A stretch of 58,139 bases of DNA from an uncultured Pelagibacteraceae bacterium (GTDB lineage: Bacteria; Pseudomonadota; Alphaproteobacteria; Pelagibacterales; Pelagibacteraceae): the NCBI GenBank assembly GCA_902590395.1, contig CACIWQ010000006.1, positions 1-58,139 on the forward strand, given 5' to 3'. A program made the position numbers and the translations under genes. Shown here one piece after another: positions 589 through 47,762 of this stretch (positions within the stretch are counted from its first letter, which is position 1; the number at the start of each line of letters is the position of its first letter). The notes beneath the pieces are model-generated. The model was given only the letters and a program-made list of their open reading frames with translations, searched no databases and was not told the DNA's origin.

Positions 589-2054
589 TGACAGAAAAAA
601 AATTTGATTATTTTATAAGTGGTGAAAAAGATAAGTGGGAAGTGATTATTGGCTTAGAAGTTCATGCTCAAGTTATATCGCAATCTAAACTTTTTTCTTC
701 ATCATCAACAAAATTCGGAAGTGAACCGAATACTCAGGTGAGTTTAGTTGATTCCGGATTTCCAGGCATGCTTCCAGTAATTAATCAATTTTGTGTGGAA
801 CAAAGTATTAAAACAGGTTTAGGTTTAAAAGCAAAAATAAATTTAAACTCTGTTTTTGATAGAAAAAATTATTTTTATGCAGATTTACCACAAGGTTACC
901 AAATCTCACAATATAAAAATCCTATTGTTGGAGAGGGCCAGGTTATTCTTGATATGCCATATGGTACCAAAAAAATTGGCATTGAACGTCTTCATTTAGA
1001 ACAGGATGCAGGAAAAAGTATACATGATATGGATCCAGAAAATTCGTTTGTGGACCTTAACAGATCTGGAGTTGCGCTAATGGAAATTGTTAGCAAGCCG
1101 GATTTAAGATCACCTCAAGAAGTAAACTTTTATATAAAGAAATTAAGATCAATTATGCGCTATCTAGGAACTTGCGATGGAAATATGCAAGAAGGATCTT
1201 TGAGAGCAGATGTTAACGTTTCAGTAAGAAAAGTAGGAGATAAGAAGTTTGGCACCAGATGTGAAATTAAAAATGTTAATTCAATTAAATTTATGGAAAT
1301 GGCCATTGAATATGAAGCTAATAGACAGGTAGAACTATTAGAGTCTGGAAAAAATATAGATCAAGAAACTAGATTATTCGATACAAAAAAAAATTCTACT
1401 AGATCTATGCGTTCTAAGGAGGATGCTCATGACTATAGGTATTTTCCTGATCCAGATTTATTACCTCTTAATATAGACAAGGGTTTAGTTGATAAATTAA
1501 AAAAAGAACTGCCAGAACTACCCGACCAAAAGAAAGATAGATTTATAAAAGAGCACAATTTGACTTCTTACGAAGCAAATATACTAGTTTCTGAAAAGGA
1601 AATTTCAGATTATTATGAAGAAGTAATAAAAGGATGTGATAAAAAGCTGGCAACCAATTGGATTACGGTAGAATTATTCGCTGTTTTAAATAAAAAAAAT
1701 CTCTCAATAGCTCAATCACCCATAAGCGCAAAGAATCTATCTTCATTAATTAAAATGATTACTTCAGGAAAAATTTCAGGAAAGATAGCAAAGGATGTTT
1801 TTGAAAAAATGCAGTCAGGCGACAAAGATCCAGAAGAAATCGTAAAAAAAGAAGGTTTGTTGCAACAAAGCGACCCCAAAGAATTGGAAAAAATAATTGT
1901 AGCCGTGATATCAAAAAATCAAGATAAAGTAGCACAATATAAATCTGGAAAAGAGAAGCTCTTTGGTTATTTTGTTGGTGAAGTAATGAAAGTATCTAAG
2001 GGAAAAGCTAATCCACAACTAGTAAATGAGATTCTTAAAAAGAAACTTCACTAA
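588..2054 (+). CDS. gatB: Aspartyl/glutamyl-tRNA amidotransferase subunit B
   Basis: GatB is the kinase/tRNA-binding subunit of GatCAB; it activates the misacylated Glu or Asp with ATP and receives ammonia from GatA. The family signature [13 protein letters not shown] sits near the N-terminus, followed by the [19 protein letters not shown] region and EIKNVNS. The C-terminal third is the helical YqeY-like tRNA-binding tail ending [12 protein letters not shown] chose ATG 588 (488 residues) because it overlaps the gatA stop (TAATG) and has GGAG five bases upstream; an in-frame TTG at 576 would only add four residues. gatC is not in the window. Confidence 0.97.
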
Positions 2055-2059
2055 ATAAA

Positions 2060-2716
2060 ATGGGATCAAATCTTGTAATAACAAAAGAAATTGAGAATTA
2101 TATTAATAATCATTCACTTGAACTGACTGAAGTTCAAAAAGAAATAATTTCATACAATAATAGTTTAGGTGATATTAAAAGAATGCAAATTTCTATATCA
2201 CAATGTCATTTTCTGCATTTAATTGTTAAAATTTCGAATACCAAAAAAATTTTGGAGATAGGTACCTTCACAGGTTTAAGCGGTCTAACCATGTCCTTAT
2301 CCCTGCCTAGTGATGGACAGTTGGTAACCTTGGATAAAAATGCAGAAAGAAATAAAATTGCATATAATTTTTTTAAAAAAGCAAAACAAGAAAAAAAAAT
2401 TAAGACAATCACAGACTCAGCCTTGGTGGGCATAACTAATTTAAAAAAGGAAAAGCAAAAATTCGATCTTATTTTTATTGATGCGGATAAAGAAAATTAT
2501 AAAAATTACTACAATCAATCATTAGATTTAATAGATAAAAATGGTTTGATTATTATTGATAATGTTTTATGGCACGGGGAAGTAGTTAATGAAAAAAACC
2601 AAGATAAGTTAACCGCAATTATCAGAGAATTTAATTCTTTCATAAATAAAGATGAAAGAACGGAAAATCTAATTATTCCTGTTGGTGATGGTCTTACGGT
2701 TTGTAGGAAGCTTTAA
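2060..2716 (+). CDS. SAM-dependent O-methyltransferase (caffeoyl-CoA OMT-like family)
   Basis: This 218-residue Rossmann-fold methyltransferase belongs to the cation-dependent O-methyltransferase family (Methyltransf_3). The SAM-binding loop EIGTFTG lies at residues 66-72. The metal-binding acidic residues of the family are visible as FIDADKENY (D141) and IIDNVLWHG (D167, N168). The substrate cannot be deduced from sequence; bacterial relatives act on catechols and other small diols. The ATG lies five bases after gatB and the stop overlaps trhO by one base, so it is probably cotranscribed with gatAB, though no functional link is evident. Confidence 0.88.
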   Translation: MGSNLVITKEIENYINNHSLELTEVQKEIISYNNSLGDIKRMQISISQCHFLHLIVKISNTKKILEIGTFTGLSGLTMSLSLPSDGQLVTLDKNAERNKIAYNFFKKAKQEKKIKTITDSALVGITNLKKEKQKFDLIFIDADKENYKNYYNQSLDLIDKNGLIIIDNVLWHGEVVNEKNQDKLTAIIREFNSFINKDERTENLIIPVGDGLTVCRKL

Positions 2717-3617: not shown

Positions 3618-4979
3618 ATGAATTTATTAAAAGATAATGTTCCAAAATTAGTTCGAAAACTTGCCTTGCCCGCTATGGTGGGAACTCTTTTTCAAACGCT
3701 TTATAATATAGTTGACACTTTTTTTGCTGGAAAAATATCACCCGAAGCATTATCAGCTTTAAGTAAATCTTTTCCTATCTACTTTATAATAGTGGCAACA
3801 TCTATTGGAGTTACTGTAGCTGGCACTGCATTGATTGGTAACAGCATTGGTGAAAAAGATGAAAACAAAACTTTAAATTATTTCACGCACATTATTTTTT
3901 ACGGAATTTTAGTTTCTATAATTATCACCTATTTAGGATTAACTTATGCTGAAAAAGTCTTTTATTTAATGGGATCAACCGATGAAGTTGTTTTTTTAGG
4001 TCTCGAGTACATAAATGTTATTTATTTAGGCTCAATCCTTTTTATTTTAGTAGTTGCATTAAACTCTTTTCTTCATGCTGAAGGTGATACAAAAACTTAT
4101 CGAAACATTTTAGTTTTATCTTTTTTTCTTAATATTATTTTAAATCCTATACTAATTTTTGGTTTTCTTTTTATACCTGCAATGGGAGTTAAAGGTATTG
4201 GTATCGCTACTATAATTGCACAATCAGTATCATTAATTATTATTCTAATTAAGGTTTTAAAAAACAATAGAGTAAGAGAAATAAATAAAAATTATTTAAT
4301 ACCAAAATTTATTTTTTTTAAAAATATCTTTTTTCAATCAATGCCTATTACTGTATCTATTTGTGGTTACGCATTAGCCGCAGCCATTATTTTTACCTAT
4401 GTTGGTCAGTCAGGCGAATATGCAGCGGCAGGTTATGGGGCAGGAACTAGAATTGAACAAGTGGTTCTTCTTCCTATTTTAGGCATCAACACTGCAATTA
4501 TTTCAATAATAGCACAAAATTATGGTGCTAAAAATTTTGATAGAATAAAAGAAACTTATATTACCGCCATAAAGTATGCTTTTATTATAATGGTTATTTC
4601 TGGAATTATTGTTTTCATATCGGCAGGTATTATTACAGGTATTTTCTCGAACGATCCTGAAGTAATAGAATACGGAAAAAGATATTTAAAAATTTCAGCA
4701 TTTGTTTTACCTGCTTACCCAGTTTTCTTTCTATCAAATGGTTTTTTTATGGCCTTAAAAAAATCAGAAATGGCTATGATTTCAAACTTTTTTAGAAACG
4801 TGCTTAATCCAATAGTAGTATTTTACATAGCAAAATATATTGATGCGAGCTTTAGCACCTTTTTTTGGATATGGGTTGGAATAAATTGGTTTTTCTCAAT
4901 TTCGTATTTCTTGATTATTATTTACTATTTTAAAAATAGATTAGATAAATCTAGTACTGTCCTTAATCCAAGCCCATAA
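3618..4979 (+). CDS. MATE family efflux transporter
   Basis: A 453-residue, very hydrophobic protein with about twelve predicted membrane helices in two similar halves, the arrangement of multidrug and toxic compound extrusion transporters. The N-terminus (LALPAMVGTLFQTLYNIVDTFFAG) is the typical MatE opening, and a second pseudo-repeat starts near residue 240. Such proteins export cationic drugs or metabolites using Na+ or H+ gradients; the substrate here is unknown. It begins two bases after trhO. Its last 39 bp overlap the 3' end of soxG on the other strand, so the C-terminal codons are shared by two convergent genes. Confidence 0.9.
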   Translation: MNLLKDNVPKLVRKLALPAMVGTLFQTLYNIVDTFFAGKISPEALSALSKSFPIYFIIVATSIGVTVAGTALIGNSIGEKDENKTLNYFTHIIFYGILVSIIITYLGLTYAEKVFYLMGSTDEVVFLGLEYINVIYLGSILFILVVALNSFLHAEGDTKTYRNILVLSFFLNIILNPILIFGFLFIPAMGVKGIGIATIIAQSVSLIIILIKVLKNNRVREINKNYLIPKFIFFKNIFFQSMPITVSICGYALAAAIIFTYVGQSGEYAAAGYGAGTRIEQVVLLPILGINTAIISIIAQNYGAKNFDRIKETYITAIKYAFIIMVISGIIVFISAGIITGIFSNDPEVIEYGKRYLKISAFVLPAYPVFFLSNGFFMALKKSEMAMISNFFRNVLNPIVVFYIAKYIDASFSTFFWIWVGINWFFSISYFLIIIYYFKNRLDKSSTVLNPSP

Positions 4980-5510
4980 GTGATCTGAAAAAGATCTTCT
5001 TACGTAAAGATCTACATCATCCTTTGTTTTTCTATGTATAGTAACATCAACATTGTTAAGTATGGTTTGTACTACTTTATTATCTCCAAAATTTTCCGGA
5101 TTAAAATCAAAGGGAGATCCTTTGGAAAGTATTTCAAAAATATTAGAGCCTGTTAAATTAAATATAGTGTAATGGTCACTAACATTTGTAACGGCACCCA
5201 AATTCATCTTTGAAATATCTTTGAATAATAATTGTTCTAATTCATAGTCATTAGACTCTTTATCTACAGTATCATTTGAAACTAAAAGCCATTCATTGGG
5301 CCCTAACCACATACAGGTGATTTGTTCTTTAGTAGATGTAGAACAAGCTTCTTTTGGAAGAATCATCCCCAATATTTTTCCAACCCTACTAGCAAAATCT
5401 TTGTTTTCTAAATTACCTCTTAAATTAATTTTTGCTACAGGAGTTTTTTCCCTCATTGAAAAATTGTTATAAGTGAGGCTTTCTGCAATTGGTGATGTAA
5501 AATTAAGCAT
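4941..5510 (-). CDS. soxG: Sarcosine oxidase, gamma subunit
   Basis: SoxG is the gamma subunit of heterotetrameric sarcosine oxidase and has a fold related to GcvT/aminomethyltransferase. The 189-residue product shows the family block MWLGPNEWLLVS and the later DHYTIFNLTG. It is the last gene of soxBDAG; its start overlaps the soxA stop by 8 bp. The subunit is structurally needed for the complex, while catalysis is in alpha and beta. The 3' end overlaps the MATE gene, which fits an extremely compact genome. Assignment rests on both motif and position. Confidence 0.93.
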   Translation of the reverse strand: MLNFTSPIAESLTYNNFSMREKTPVAKINLRGNLENKDFASRVGKILGMILPKEACSTSTKEQITCMWLGPNEWLLVSNDTVDKESNDYELEQLLFKDISKMNLGAVTNVSDHYTIFNLTGSNIFEILSKGSPFDFNPENFGDNKVVQTILNNVDVTIHRKTKDDVDLYVRRSFSDHLWAWIKDSTRFI

Positions 5511-8781: not shown

Positions 8782-10035
8782 TTAATGAGCTACAGCTGCA
8801 GCACCGTGTTCATCAACGAGATCTCCACTAACAAATCTATTGATATTGAATGCAGCGTTTAAAGCATGAGGTTCATCTTTTGCAATTGTATGAGCAAACA
8901 AATGTCCGGATCCAGGAGTGGCTTTAAACCCGCCAGTTCCCCACCCACAATTAAAATAAAGTCCTTTAATTGAAGTTTTGCTTATTAATGGGCTTGCATC
9001 TGGACATATGTCAACAACACCACCCCATTGTCTGAGCATTCTAAGTCTACTAAAAATTGGATAAAGTTCTAAAATAGCTTTCAAAGTTCCTTCTACAATT
9101 TCATGAGTACCTTTTTGCGTATAGGAAATATAAGAGTCAGTACCTGCTCCTATAACGAGTTCACCTTTGTCGGATTGACTTACGTATGCGTGAACGGCGT
9201 TAGACATAACAACAGTATCGATTATTGGCTTAATTGGTTCTGAAACTAATGCTTGTAAGGGTTTGCTTTCAAGCGGTAGTCTTAAACCAGCCATGTTTGC
9301 AATTACACTAGAATGACCTGCTGCCACTACACCAACTTTTTTAGTTTTAATAAAACCTTTTGTTGTTTCTATTCCTTCAATAGAATCACCATTTCTTTTT
9401 ATTCCTTTTACTTCACAATTTTGAATAATATCAACTCCCATTGAATCTGCGCCTCTAGCGTAACCCCAAGCAACGGCATCGTGTCTTGCCGTGCCAGCTC
9501 TTCTTTGTAAAGTACTACCCATTACTGGGTAACGGATGTTAGGCGAACAATTAATAATAGGGCAAAATTTTTTAACTTGTTGTACATTAAGCCATTCGCA
9601 GTCTATTCCATTAAGTCTATTAGCATGAGTTCTTCTTTTTAGTTCTCTTACGTCATGTTGATTATGCGCTAAATTCATTACACCTCTTTGGCTAAACATG
9701 ATGTTATAATTTAATTCTTGAGATAAATTTTCCCAAATTTTTAAGGCGTGGTCATACAATCCCGCACTTGCATCCCAAAGATAATTAGACCTTATTATTG
9801 TAGTATTTCTTCCAGTGTTACCACCGCCAATCCATCCTTTTTCCAATACAGCAATATTTTTTAAATTATGTTCTTTTGCTAAATAATATGCTGTAGCCAA
9901 ACCGTGTCCACCTCCACCAATAATAACGGCATCATATTGAGATTTAGGTTCAGGATCCCTCCAGGCTCGTTGCCAATTTTCATGGTAGCTTAATGAGTTT
10001 TTAATAAGTGCAAATATTGAATATTTTTTCTTCAT
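8782..10035 (-). CDS. soxB: Sarcosine oxidase, beta subunit
   Basis: The beta subunit carries FAD and covalent FMN and performs the amine oxidation. The 417-residue protein has a DAO fold: dinucleotide-binding [19 protein letters not shown] at about residues 38-56, and [19 protein letters not shown], where His185 is in the position expected for the covalent FMN link (family knowledge, not proven here). The C-terminal [20 protein letters not shown] block is characteristic. It starts 14 bases after the rarD stop on the same strand, so rarD and soxBDAG may share a transcript. Confidence 0.96.
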
Positions 10036-33856: not shown

Positions 33857-34897
33857 ATGTATATTAATTCAATGCTGGAAGAAAATAAAAATTATTATAT
33901 TGAAAAATGGTTACTTTTGGTAACTTTTTTAGTAGCTTTTATGATATTTATCGGTGGTTTAACCAGATTAACTGATTCAGGTTTGTCTATTACTGAATGG
34001 GATTTAATATCTGGAATTCTACCACCCCTTACATTGAACCAGTGGGAAAACGCTTTCGCTTTATATAAAAAAATACCTGAGTATCAAATACTAAACTCCT
34101 CGATGTCTTTAGAAGAATTTAAAGTAATTTATTGGTGGGAGTATGTTCATAGGTTATTAGGCAGAATAATAGGATTAGTATACATAATTCCATTGCTTTA
34201 CTTTACTTTTAAGAGAAATCTAAAGACTAATTATTTGCTATCGCTTTATTTAATATTTCTGTTGATTTGCATACAAGGTTTCATTGGTTGGTATATGGTA
34301 ACAAGCGGTTTAACAGAGAGAACTGATGTAAGTCATTACAGATTATCTTTACATTTAACTCTTGCCTTTTTTATTTTCATACTTTTGTTCTGGAATTACC
34401 TTAAAATTAAAATTTATGATAAATATAACAACTTTAGTAAATTGCCATTTTTTTTACCAAACTTTTTTTTAATTTTTATTTTATTACAAATTTCTATTGG
34501 TGCTTTAGTATCTGGTTTAAATGCAGGTGAAATTTATCAATCCTGGCCATTAATGAACGATACCTATTTTCCTGACGACTCAAATATAAAAGATATGTTC
34601 TTACCAAATGTCTTTGAGAATCCTTCTCTTGTACAATTTATTCACCGAAATTTAGCATATTTGATTTTTATATTTTTCTTTGTTTTAATGATTTGCGTTT
34701 TTAAAAGTACAAAATTAGCGTATTTAAAAAATACAATGATGATTTTATTTGCTGCTCTTTTTCTTCAAGTTTTTCTAGGTGTATTGACTATTTTATCTGG
34801 CGCACAAATTGTATTAGCTTCACTGCATCAAATAGGATCAATTTTTTTAATAACCACATCAGTAATTTTAGTATACAAAAATTCTAAAATTAACTAA
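33857..34897 (+). CDS. ctaA: Heme A synthase (COX15/CtaA)
   Basis: CtaA oxidises the methyl group of heme O to the formyl group of heme A for aa3-type oxidases. The 346-residue protein has eight membrane helices in two similar halves. The conserved heme-ligand histidines are in WEYVHRLLGRIIG, RLSLHLTLAF, FIHRNLAYLI and ASLHQIGSI. The opening GGLTRLTDSGLSITEWD is the family signature. It is convergent with metY and overlaps it by 8 bp. Proheme synthesis is represented nearby by hemB. Confidence 0.95.
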   Translation: MYINSMLEENKNYYIEKWLLLVTFLVAFMIFIGGLTRLTDSGLSITEWDLISGILPPLTLNQWENAFALYKKIPEYQILNSSMSLEEFKVIYWWEYVHRLLGRIIGLVYIIPLLYFTFKRNLKTNYLLSLYLIFLLICIQGFIGWYMVTSGLTERTDVSHYRLSLHLTLAFFIFILLFWNYLKIKIYDKYNNFSKLPFFLPNFFLIFILLQISIGALVSGLNAGEIYQSWPLMNDTYFPDDSNIKDMFLPNVFENPSLVQFIHRNLAYLIFIFFFVLMICVFKSTKLAYLKNTMMILFAALFLQVFLGVLTILSGAQIVLASLHQIGSIFLITTSVILVYKNSKIN

Positions 34898-36218
34898 CTG
34901 CTTTCAATTTGCTTCTACCAGAGGCGTTAAGAGCTTGGTCTAAATCGGCTATAATGTCATCCGGATGCTCTATTCCAATAGATAATCTAACATATCCGGG
35001 AGTAACTCCTGCGGCTAACAATTCTTCTTCGGTAAGTTGACTGTGTGTAGTTGTTGCAGGATGTATAGCTAAACTTCTAGCATCGCCTATATTAGCAACG
35101 TGATAAAACATTTTTAGTGCTTCAATGAATTTTTTACCTGATTCAACTCCTCCTTTTACTTCGATACCAACTAAACCACCATTTCCACCTTTGAAGTATT
35201 TTTTTGCTCTATCGCCGATGGCACCTTTATGTAGAGTAGGGTAGATAACTCTTTCTACATTTTTATGTTTTTGTAAAAAAACAACAGCTTTCTCAGCATT
35301 TGAACAATGTTGTTTCATTCTTAAAGCAACGGTTTCTAAACCTTGAATTATCCCGAAAGCATTATCAGGAGCTAAAGCAGAACCTAAATCTCGTAGTAAA
35401 ACTACTCTTGCCCTTACTGCATACGCTACATTTGCTCCAGTAAGTTCAGGAACTACTTTACCCCAAACAGCTCCTCCATAGCTTGCGTCGGGTTCATTAA
35501 ATAAAGGTTGTCTTTTGGGATCAGTTGTCCAATCAAAATTTCCTCCATCAACTAAACATCCGCCAATAACTGTACCATGACCTCCAATAAATTTAGTTAG
35601 TGAATGAATTACCACCGCAGCACCATGCTCTAAAGGTTTACATATAACTGGCGATGCTGTGTTATCCATAATCAGAGGAATGTTATATTTTCTTCCGATA
35701 TCAGAAACTTCTTTTATGGGAAAAACACGCAAATAAGGATTTGGCAGCGTTTCAGCATAGATACATCTAGTTTTTTCGTCTATATGTTTTTCAAAATTTT
35801 TTGGATCAGATGGATCAGCGTATCTTACTTCAATACCTAATTTTTTTAATGTATGAGTAAATAAATTTACTGTACCACCATAAAGATCGGTTGAACTTAT
35901 AAAATTGTCTCCAGCTTGACAAACATTTGCTATAGCAAAAGTTGATGCAGCTTGACCTGAACCTACAGTCACACAGGCTAGCCCACCTTCTAATGCAGCA
36001 ACTCTTTTTTCTAGTGCGTCATTAGTTGGATTCATTATTCGTGTATAAATATTTCCAAATTCCTTTAAGGCAAAAAGGTTAGCAGCATTATCTGTACTCT
36101 TAAACTGATAAGAAGTAGTTCTATAAATTGGTACGGCTACTGCTGTAGTAGCTGGATCACTTCTATATTCTCCTCCATGTAGAGCTATAGTTTCTGGATT
36201 TTTTATATTTTTTGTCAT
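34890..36218 (-). CDS. metY: O-acetylhomoserine aminocarboxypropyltransferase / sulfhydrylase
   Basis: A PLP enzyme of the Cys/Met metabolism family that makes homocysteine (or methionine with methanethiol) from O-acetylhomoserine and reduced sulfur. The 442-residue protein begins with ETIALHGGEYRSDPATTAVAVPIY, has AALEGGLACVTVGSGQAAS, and the PLP lysine in VVIHSLTKFIGGHGT; the GYVRLSIGIEHPDDIIADLDQAL tail is typical. An AAAGGAAAAAAAA tract precedes the ATG as ribosome-binding site. The 134-bp leader region is a candidate for SAM-responsive control (see findings). Confidence 0.95.
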   Translation of the reverse strand: MTKNIKNPETIALHGGEYRSDPATTAVAVPIYRTTSYQFKSTDNAANLFALKEFGNIYTRIMNPTNDALEKRVAALEGGLACVTVGSGQAASTFAIANVCQAGDNFISSTDLYGGTVNLFTHTLKKLGIEVRYADPSDPKNFEKHIDEKTRCIYAETLPNPYLRVFPIKEVSDIGRKYNIPLIMDNTASPVICKPLEHGAAVVIHSLTKFIGGHGTVIGGCLVDGGNFDWTTDPKRQPLFNEPDASYGGAVWGKVVPELTGANVAYAVRARVVLLRDLGSALAPDNAFGIIQGLETVALRMKQHCSNAEKAVVFLQKHKNVERVIYPTLHKGAIGDRAKKYFKGGNGGLVGIEVKGGVESGKKFIEALKMFYHVANIGDARSLAIHPATTTHSQLTEEELLAAGVTPGYVRLSIGIEHPDDIIADLDQALNASGRSKLKAVS

Positions 36219-44556: not shown

Positions 44557-44631
44557 GGTCCCATCGTCTAACGGTTAGGACAGATGGTTTTCAATCATCT
44601 AATCGGGGTTCGATTCCCCGTGGGACCGCCA
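44557..44631 (+). tRNA. tRNA-Glu (anticodon UUC)
   Basis: Cloverleaf with acceptor GGTCCCA/TGGGACC, D arm with GTCTAACGGTTAGGAC, anticodon stem GATGG/TCATC around loop TTTTCAA (anticodon TTC), and T arm CGGGG-TTCGATT-CCCCG. The discriminator G and encoded CCA follow. The FAH-family gene begins 8 bp after it, so the two may be cotranscribed. Confidence 0.96.
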
Positions 44632-44639
44632 ATATTTTT

Positions 44640-45488
44640 ATGAAACTCTTAAGAGTAGGTAGTTTAAATAGAGAAAAACCAGCTATAATTGATAATAATG
44701 GCTCAATAAAGGACCTGTCGTCATTAATATCTGATTTTAATCCTGACACCATTAATCTCAATTTAATTGAAACTATTAAAAAGCAGAATCTGTCTAAATT
44801 GCCAGAAATAGATAAAAATGTACGAGTGGGGGCCTGTGTATCCAGACCCGAAAAATTCATCGGTATTGGTCTTAATTACTCTGCGCACGCTAAGGAAACA
44901 GGTACTACACCTCCAAAAGAACCAATTGTATTTTTTAAGTCGAATAGTTCAATTTGTGGACCCAATGATACGGTTTACTTACCAAAAAAATCTGTAAAAT
45001 CTGATTGGGAAGTAGAGTTAGGTATAATAATTGGGCAGAAAGCAAAAAATATAACTGAAAAAGAATCTATGAAACATATTTTTGGATATTGCATAGTAAA
45101 TGATATTAGTGAAAGAGAATATCAAATCGAAAGATCGAGTGGCCAATGGGACAAGGGAAAAGCTTTTGACACTTTTGGACCTATAGGACCTTACATTGTA
45201 ACTAAAGATGAAATTACAAATGTTCAAAATTTAAATTTAGAATTAAAACTGAATGAAAAAATTATGCAAAAGGGCAACACTGATGATATGATTTTTAGTG
45301 TATCTTATCTTGTTTCATATTTAAGCTACTTCATGACTTTAAAACCTGGAGATATAATTACAACAGGAACTCCGCCAGGTGTTGGGATGGGTCGGAAACC
45401 ACAAATTTTTTTAAAGTCGGGTGACAAAATGAGTTTGAAGATAGATATTTTAGGTAAACAAGAACAAAAAGTTTTGTCAGAGAAATAA
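44640..45488 (+). CDS. Fumarylacetoacetate hydrolase (FAH) family protein
   Basis: A 282-residue protein of the FAH superfamily. The conserved core opens with KFIGIGLNYSAHAKETG, followed by FFKSNSSICGPNDTVYLP, the metal-binding acids DWEVELGIIIG and NDISEREYQ, and GDIITTGTPPGVGMG. Members include acylpyruvate hydrolases, oxaloacetate decarboxylases and 2-keto-acid hydratases; the substrate cannot be told from sequence. It begins 8 bp after tRNA-Glu, and the GIY-YIG gene overlaps its stop by one base. Confidence 0.9.
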   Translation: MKLLRVGSLNREKPAIIDNNGSIKDLSSLISDFNPDTINLNLIETIKKQNLSKLPEIDKNVRVGACVSRPEKFIGIGLNYSAHAKETGTTPPKEPIVFFKSNSSICGPNDTVYLPKKSVKSDWEVELGIIIGQKAKNITEKESMKHIFGYCIVNDISEREYQIERSSGQWDKGKAFDTFGPIGPYIVTKDEITNVQNLNLELKLNEKIMQKGNTDDMIFSVSYLVSYLSYFMTLKPGDIITTGTPPGVGMGRKPQIFLKSGDKMSLKIDILGKQEQKVLSEK

Positions 45489-45742
45489 TGTACCTAATGA
45501 ACTTTTTTGTTTACGTAATTGGAAGCAAAAAAAACCCTAAACGCACTTATGTTGGCTGGACAAATAATATAAAAAAGAGAATTGATAAACATAACAAAGG
45601 CCTAGGGGCCAAATTTACTAGAGGAAGAAGATGGAAATTAATATATTCTGAAACATTAAAATCGCAAAAAGCTGCAATGAAAAGGGAGTATCAATTAAAG
45701 AAGGATACTAAATTTAGATCAATAATTCGTTCTAAAATCTAA
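45488..45742 (+). CDS. GIY-YIG nuclease domain protein
   Basis: An 84-residue single-domain GIY-YIG protein of the YhbQ/UPF0213 or UvrC-N-like small group. The domain is visible as FFVYVIGSKKNPKRTYVGWTNNIKKRIDKHNKG (core motif VYV...TYVG), followed by a conserved Arg and the C-terminal Glu-containing KREYQLKK helix. Such small proteins are frequent in bacteria and are thought to act in DNA repair or processing; the role is unknown. Start at 45488 overlaps the FAH stop; a second Met is 9 bp later. Confidence 0.83.
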   Translation: MYLMNFFVYVIGSKKNPKRTYVGWTNNIKKRIDKHNKGLGAKFTRGRRWKLIYSETLKSQKAAMKREYQLKKDTKFRSIIRSKI

Positions 45743-46771: not shown

Positions 46772-47686
46772 TTAAATTTTTATTTTATTTAATGCATTGT
46801 TTTTGAATAGATTAGCTTCTTTTATATATCTTCTAACCATTTGAGTTGTCTTGTGTCCTGTCATAGCCATGATGCTTCTTTCCTCTGCTCCTAATTCGGC
46901 TGTTGAAGTAGCAAATCCCGATCTTAAGCTATGACCTGAATATTTGCTTGGATCTAACCCTGCCAAATACGAATATTTTTTTATTATCAATGCAACACTT
47001 TTATCTGAAATGTCAAAAATTTTTCCTGTTTTAATTTCTAATATATCAATCCATTTTTTTAATGAAGCTACAGGACAATATTTTGGGTTAGAAAAGTAGG
47101 GGATACCCTTCGTCATTCCTTCGCCAGATTGGTCAGTTTTTGATCTTTTGACAAATATTTTTACACCTTCAGTTACAAAGTCTAAATCCTCATAGTCTAT
47201 TGCTACTAACTCAGATCTTCTAAATCCACCAGAAAATCCAATCAGAATTAAAGCTCTATTTTTAATTCTACTTTTTTCATTTTTATCTTTATCAATCGCA
47301 TCAACTATTAATTTTAACTCATTGATTAATATTGGTTTTTTTGCTTTTTGATAACTTCCTAGTACTCGTTTTATGCCCATCAAATTTTCAGTAATCATTG
47401 GATGTTTTACATCAATGTAATGACCAGATATTTTGTGTATTACGCTAATAGAGGCCAACCTTCTCTTTAAAGTGCTAAATTTTGACGATTTGGATAAATG
47501 AGTTAAATAAAGTGTTATTATTTTTGGTTCAGATGGCATAGGTTTAAAACCATTTTTAATACAGAAGCTTGCAAAGTCTTTATAATCTGCTTTATATGCC
47601 CTTAGCGTGTTTGAGGCCTTGGAACTTCTAAGATTCTTTATAGTTTCCAATTCTAGGGATTTAACATCTGTTACTAAATCGTTCAT
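46772..47686 (-). CDS. Tyrosine recombinase/integrase
   Basis: A 304-residue site-specific recombinase with an N-terminal SAM-like DNA-binding domain (about 10-100) and a complete catalytic domain: Arg156 in GGFRRSELVA, Lys183 in SKTDQ, His252 and Arg255 in SGHSLRSGFAT, His278 in MTGHKTTQ, and the nucleophile Tyr287 in RRYI. All six positions are intact, so it should be active. It differs from XerC/XerD in the linker and lacks their usual genomic partner. It is leftward, its start is 4 bp from a perfect 9-7-9 inverted repeat, and two small unknown genes run the other way. This looks like a mobile-element or island integrase, though no att duplication was found. Confidence 0.93.
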   Translation of the reverse strand: MNDLVTDVKSLELETIKNLRSSKASNTLRAYKADYKDFASFCIKNGFKPMPSEPKIITLYLTHLSKSSKFSTLKRRLASISVIHKISGHYIDVKHPMITENLMGIKRVLGSYQKAKKPILINELKLIVDAIDKDKNEKSRIKNRALILIGFSGGFRRSELVAIDYEDLDFVTEGVKIFVKRSKTDQSGEGMTKGIPYFSNPKYCPVASLKKWIDILEIKTGKIFDISDKSVALIIKKYSYLAGLDPSKYSGHSLRSGFATSTAELGAEERSIMAMTGHKTTQMVRRYIKEANLFKNNALNKIKI

Positions 47687-47690
47687 ATTT

Positions 47691-47715
47691 TTCCGATAAC
47701 CATTAATTATCGGAA
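47691..47715. repeat. Perfect 9-bp inverted repeat with 7-bp centre by the integrase
   Basis: TTCCGATAA (47691-47699), seven bases, then TTATCGGAA (47707-47715). The arms are perfectly complementary. The geometry (9-bp arms, 7-bp centre) is the layout of tyrosine-recombinase core sites, and it lies 4 bp upstream of the integrase start codon. Alternatives are an operator for autoregulation or an RNA hairpin in the leader. Direct observation of the repeat; function inferred. Confidence 0.85.
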
Positions 47716-47762
47716 GTTATATATTGGATGAATTTTAAAGTCAACATATATAAATTTACTGG

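Follow-up and report, generated by a model that had tools for sequence, protein, structure and literature searches.

A single-copy palindrome beside a Cre-like tyrosine recombinase is the probable dif-type site of SAR11 (Pelagibacteraceae)

In most Proteobacteria, two recombinases, XerC and XerD, act on dif, an 11-6-11 site at the replication terminus whose inner arms end in ATAA...TTAT, together with the FtsK gamma domain and KOPS. A single recombinase and a site with symmetric arms around an asymmetric spacer are known from Cre/loxP of phage P1, where loxP is a phage-borne 13-8-13 site. Among dif/Xer systems, single recombinases are represented by XerS/difSL of streptococci and lactococci, with the site linked to the recombinase gene (PMC2731167), and by XerH/difH of Campylobacterota, where the recombinase is likewise linked and the palindromic site lies at the terminus (PMC2731167, PMC5241119). 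XerL/dif resolves dimers with one recombinase in Legionellales, an order reported to be without dif/Xer, and a mobile element takes advantage of it by means of a dif mimic (PMC9765430). Features by which dif sites have been recognised are a palindrome, occurrence as one non-coding copy and location at the skew maximum, together with linkage to one recombinase in XerS/difSL and XerH/difH (PMC2731167). Pelagibacter ubique is stated to be without dif/Xer, which was read as streamlining making dimer resolution dispensable (PMC2731167). In our literature searches we met with no report of a dif site in SAR11, the ocean's most abundant bacteria, in which such a site has long been missing.

We analysed a stretch of 58,139 bp from an uncultured Pelagibacteraceae genome (the window). 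At positions 47691-47715 it contains, exactly as the original prediction claimed, a perfect 9-7-9 inverted repeat of 25 bp, which reads TTCCGATAA-CCATTAA-TTATCGGAA on the plus strand and TTCCGATAA-TTAATGG-TTATCGGAA in the sense of the recombinase gene (type I). The predicted gap of 4 bp (47687-47690) separates it from the ATG (47684-47686) of the intact recombinase gene (Table 1). The 25-bp sequence has no second copy in the window, as had been noticed, and is also single in the whole assembly (926 kb, 73% complete). Since about one perfect 9-7-9 repeat per window arises by chance (1.15 per 58 kb in Markov-shuffled windows; 0.15 if the arms hold at least three G/C), the palindrome alone is weak evidence and was rejected as significant by itself. 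It is therefore conservation in relatives, not palindromy as such, that shows the site to be functional. The G+C content of the type I site (8/25, 32%) does not lie below the genome average of about 30%; low G+C is a descriptive hallmark of dif sites (PMC2731167), for which we see no mechanistic requirement.

Table 1. Elements of the recombinase locus in the window, and dif-like sites in pelagiphage sequences
Sequence	Element	Position	Strand	Basis
Window	Lone tyrosine recombinase of 304 aa, Cre/XerH-like; proposed to act as a single-component Xer	46772..47686	-	PF00589, structure search
Window	Right arm, recombinase sense (TTATCGGAA), presumed recombinase-binding	47691..47699	-	near-invariant, 96 distinct modules
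Window	Asymmetric 7-bp spacer (TTAATGG in recombinase sense), where strands are presumed to be exchanged	47700..47706	-	kept as TTAATKG
Window	Left arm, recombinase sense (TTCCGATAA)	47707..47715	-	invariant, 96 distinct modules
Window	-10-like hexamer TATAAC, adjoins site, 17 bp from -35	47716..47721	-	sequence; layout kept in relatives
Window	-35-like hexamer TTGACT	47739..47744	-	TTGAC 28-30 bp from left arm, 117 modules
IMG/VR contig L327	dif-like site(s)	4180-4285		non-coding, upstream of terL
IMG/VR contig L316	dif-like site(s)	5280-5390		non-coding, upstream of terL
IMG/VR contig L310	dif-like site(s)	2050-2150		non-coding, upstream of terL
IMG/VR contig L318	dif-like site(s)	near 113	-	non-coding, upstream of terL
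HTVC106P	dif-like site(s)	35380-35436		non-coding, upstream of terL
HTVC035P	dif-like site(s)	35830-35888		non-coding, upstream of terL
HTVC100P	dif-like site(s)	34320-34378		non-coding, upstream of terL
Greip	dif-like site(s)			non-coding, upstream of terL

The motif search in related genomes, suggested together with the original prediction, covered 297 Pelagibacterales (244 Pelagibacteraceae and 53 members of a sister family); recombinase homologues were accepted at E < 1e-10. The recombinase is encoded in 205 genomes, once in each, and all 11 complete (single-contig) Pelagibacteraceae genomes scanned possess it. When start regions are aligned, almost all close homologues prove to be preceded by this 25-bp sequence. 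Among 96 modules with distinct proteins, the 25-mer is perfect in 88 and each of its columns is at least 96% conserved within variable flanks; it is near-invariant among proteins about 70% identical. The spacer TTAATGG is asymmetric, yet kept nearly as well as the arms. Because the distance from site to ATG varies among relatives (2 to 12 bp), the site does not belong to the context of the start codon.

Where the recombinase is more diverged, genomes contain at the same position a co-varied sequence, TTACTANYGATAA-TTAATKG-TTATCAATAGTAA (type II), which retains the inner arms and spacer of type I and has its outer arms exchanged. Recombinases of the two types are about 65% identical. The type I site was found in 50 genomes and type II in 155, and these are exactly the 205 with recombinase; none harbours both types or two copies, and the 17-bp core alone never occurs more than once per genome in the whole set of 297. 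On the recombinase tree, site type needs only two changes. Recombinase and site are missing in 92 genomes. These comprise all 53 of the sister family, where neither site type was found, and 39 of the 244 Pelagibacteraceae, which as far as listed are draft assemblies; incomplete assembly probably explains their lack of the locus. Both site types occur within a single genus in genera g2, g3, g6 and g7 of family f1, with identical flanking sequence around the two in g6 (L149 and L153), which suggests that the cassette at the terminus was replaced or switched its specificity.

The recombinase matches PF00589 (E 5e-18). All six catalytic residues attributed to it from the sequence are borne out by 50 homologues, in which R156, K183, H252, R255 and Y287 do not vary and at least 90% retain H278. 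With NCBIfam models it scores 61-65 bits for XerC/XerD (cut-offs 330-335), 51.7 for XerS (equivalog cut-off 267) and 62.1 for XerA (equivalog cut-off 220), thus far below the threshold in each case. Structure search of the PDB with an AlphaFold2 model (pLDDT 80.6) places Cre-loxP complexes as the best match (E 4e-11), followed by XerA and XerH. Cre is also among the early sequence matches, and by sequence the recombinase is nearer to Cre/XerA than to XerH.

Neither XerC nor XerD is present in the 11 complete Pelagibacteraceae, where the top XerD-model score (82 bits) is that of the recombinase described here. Both proteins occur in the sister family of the same order, with about 315 and 250 bits, and likewise in most of the other Alphaproteobacteria tested. 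Two other Alphaproteobacteria, G550 (2.0 Mb) and G456 (1.6 Mb), encode a relative of the recombinase and show no XerC/XerD match; they may represent further replacements of XerCD.

Despite its likeness to the systems introduced above, which includes the inner arm ends ATAA...TTAT shared with canonical dif, the locus coincides with none of them. Canonical XerCD/dif is ruled out, as the equivalog cut-offs are missed and the spacing is 7 instead of that in an 11-6-11 site. XerS/difSL has another site sequence, and both its spacing and its enzyme, judged from the XerS score above, differ. The difH spacer is 6 bp compared with 7 here, and its sequence is unrelated. XerL belongs to another bacterial class and, according to its description, is set apart as a longer protein with the catalytic tyrosine at 387/389 instead of 287. 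In contrast to loxP, the SAR11 site is 9-7-9 or about 13-7-13, chromosomal and situated at the terminus.

The site is located at the replication terminus, as marked by the cumulative GC-skew maximum. Within the window, this maximum is reached at 48.0 kb, compared with 47.7 kb for the site. Six complete genomes were fitted with a symmetric replichore model, one-third of each being sampled and the skew being noisy; the best terminus lies 0.3-2.9% of the genome from the site, and in each genome a fraction of 0.005 to 0.05 of all positions would do equally well (p 6e-6 when combined). In complete genome G011 (1,308,759 bp), for example, the type II site (998.8 kb) and the skew terminus are 0.5% of the genome apart. 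An unconstrained two-breakpoint fit to five of the six puts the terminus within 0.2-4.6% of the site, beating its own permutations in only three of these five. FtsK with a gamma domain (FtsK_gamma) is encoded in all 15 genomes inspected for it. KOPS-like octamers (GGGNAGGG) are oriented toward the site in a ratio of 26:4; a control octamer gives 20:10 (five genomes), so general G skew accounts for part of the KOPS polarity. Positions 44557-45742 of the window, shortly ahead of the terminus region, hold tRNA-Glu, then a gene of the FAA-hydrolase family and one for a small stand-alone GIY-YIG nuclease.

Taken together, we hold it very probable that the palindrome is the dif-type site of SAR11 (Pelagibacteraceae) and that the adjacent gene encodes its one tyrosine recombinase. 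The best reading of these sequences is a single-recombinase, Cre-like dif/Xer module. It relies on conservation, on one palindromic site per chromosome in one-to-one linkage with the recombinase gene (as in difSL and most difH), on co-variation of site and recombinase clade, and on terminus position. It further relies on a lone recombinase with a complete catalytic set and a model closest to Cre in genomes devoid of XerC/XerD, on the retained FtsK gamma domain and oriented KOPS, and on the presence of both site types in integrase-less pelagiphages (see below). A single copy is what a dif-type site should show, because its recombination partner is the sister chromosome's copy within a dimer. 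The 7-bp spacing, compared with 6 bp in known dif sites, is a point against this reading, as are the G+C content of the type I site and the 92 genomes in which recombinase and site are missing.

Expression data lend additional support. In two published data sets (PMC3090418, PMC5069961), a gene of strain HTCC1062 annotated xerD goes up along with recA: in one of them SAR11_1019 is reported to be induced, like recA, under sulfur limitation, and in the other an xerD gene and recA are both raised in the light. The xerD genes of both sets are probable orthologues of the present recombinase.

Binding, cleavage, activation by FtsK and autoregulation are what we infer for the module, which might operate as follows. 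Homologous recombination would fuse sister chromosomes into a dimer with two site copies in direct repeat. FtsK, steered by the oriented KOPS-like octamers, would join both sites at the septum, where a recombinase tetramer, one monomer per arm, could swap strands across the asymmetric 7-bp spacer and so return the dimer to monomers. Recombinase residing on its site, directly downstream of the -10 hexamer, would repress its own gene. If this is true, SAR11 kept dimer resolution and traded two-enzyme XerCD for one Cre-like enzyme; site and recombinase then form a self-contained cassette, SAR11 genomes gain an exact terminus marker, and two natural classes of site specificity exist with enzymes about 65% identical.

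The site adjoins a promoter, TTGACT-N17-TATAAC (47744-47716) in the window, whose layout relative to the left arm recurs in relatives wherever the motif was found (Table 1). The transcript start is predicted to fall inside the site. As the -10 abuts the site, bound recombinase should occlude its own promoter. Autoregulation is thus likely a second role of the site, not an alternative to recombination, and the operator for self-regulation proposed in the original prediction is plausible to this extent only. That the palindrome serves exclusively as operator of the recombinase promoter, bound by the recombinase or another regulator while recombination takes place elsewhere, appears improbable. 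The fixed spacing to conserved -35/-10 elements and the overlap with the predicted transcription start would suit such a role; for an operator, however, there is no need to preserve an asymmetric 7-bp spacer. The module moreover lies at the terminus, the genomes contain no other candidate site with the same core, integrase-less phages carry the site in non-coding DNA, and other Alphaproteobacteria have the same arms and spacing inside a reading frame, not at promoter position. The phage sites also speak against an RNA hairpin in the recombinase leader (attenuator or start-codon shield), which the site's location 2-12 nt ahead of the ATG, where the transcript is predicted to begin, might bring to mind. 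We give this explanation hardly any credence, because the spacer, its would-be loop, is conserved as well as the arms, the transcript probably begins inside the left arm, and arm changes between types I and II track recombinase clades.

It is just as hard to believe that an integrative mobile element carrying the recombinase uses the palindrome as its attachment site, although the enzyme has the phage-integrase fold and its closest relatives outside SAR11 are patchy and accessory-integrase-like. The gene is single-copy in all 205 genomes possessing it, including the 11 complete Pelagibacteraceae scanned, the core search found neither a second site nor a flanking repeat in 297 genomes, and IMG/VR yielded no real relative of the recombinase (the single match, L112, proved to be an integrase unrelated to it). 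Integrative elements are marked by two recombined att sites around cargo and by patchy occurrence, neither of which is observed here. A mobile integrase or island, being at odds with single copy, conservation across Pelagibacteraceae and lack of a second site, was rejected as largely refuted. Of the original wording, "strand-exchange site" is strongly supported by conservation, linkage and terminus position; "of this element", in a mobile sense, is not compatible with a single-copy, family-wide module fixed at the terminus. Constant association with the recombinase without rearrangement, combined with lack of binding by the protein, had been named as refutation. The site is indeed always beside the recombinase without rearrangement, and this does not refute the dif/Xer reading because dif modules look so.

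We also scanned IMG/VR with the 17-bp core. This retrieved 29 contigs, about 20 of which contain full or near-full sites. Those whose proteins were examined encode terL, portal or capsid, and the stretch examined contains no recombinase match; terL of site-bearing contigs is related to that of pelagiphages HTVC106P and HTVC010P. In several contigs a type II-like site is directly followed by a type I site. Isolates HTVC106P, HTVC035P, HTVC100P and Greip each have at least one site with 1 mismatch, compared with 4-8 in shuffled sequence, and the first two carry a type I site at spacer 6 with a type II-like site alongside. A PF00589 gene is absent in 10 of 11 pelagiphage isolates checked. The sole one belongs to HTVC028P (8992-9585), whose terL has no dif-like site nearby, which fits reliance on an integrase of its own.

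The arrangement of phage sites resembles that of known elements exploiting Xer (IMEX; PMC5357621, PMC4246890) and can be likened to the dif mimic used with XerL. It is conceivable, if rather doubtful, that HTVC010P-type (Ubiqueviridae) and HTVC106P-like pelagiphages hijack the SAR11 recombinase through dif mimics and are cryptically temperate or Xer-dependent. Tandem type II and type I sites could allow integration at host dif of either specificity; alternatively, phage genomes could be resolved through host dif. None of the 297 genomes contains a second core site, and accordingly no prophages with hybrid att sites came to light; as no integrated phage copy was found, phage use of host Xer is put forward as a hypothesis. 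A published description of HTVC010P-type phages mentions neither attachment sites nor integrases. The pelagiphages concerned are among the most abundant ocean viruses and mostly have no tyrosine integrase gene, and the module offers a direct route for testing their use of host Xer.

Outside SAR11, relatives of the recombinase at 35-41% identity are scattered in other Alphaproteobacteria. Five of nine such loci have a GATAA-N7-TTATC site at the recombinase start, two of these being perfect 9-7-9 repeats with differing spacers. The cassette of recombinase and site with 7-bp spacing is therefore probably older than its use in SAR11. In four loci (L332:1419, L334:1452, L335:1422 and L337:1329; match strand, 0-based) the site overlaps the N-terminal reading frame, and L339:1413 (reverse-complement coordinates, 0-based) shows the same arrangement. 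The peptide encoded across the site is LT[SR]DNxxLS, and its TTA leucine codon is retained even where the surrounding sequence looks GC-rich.
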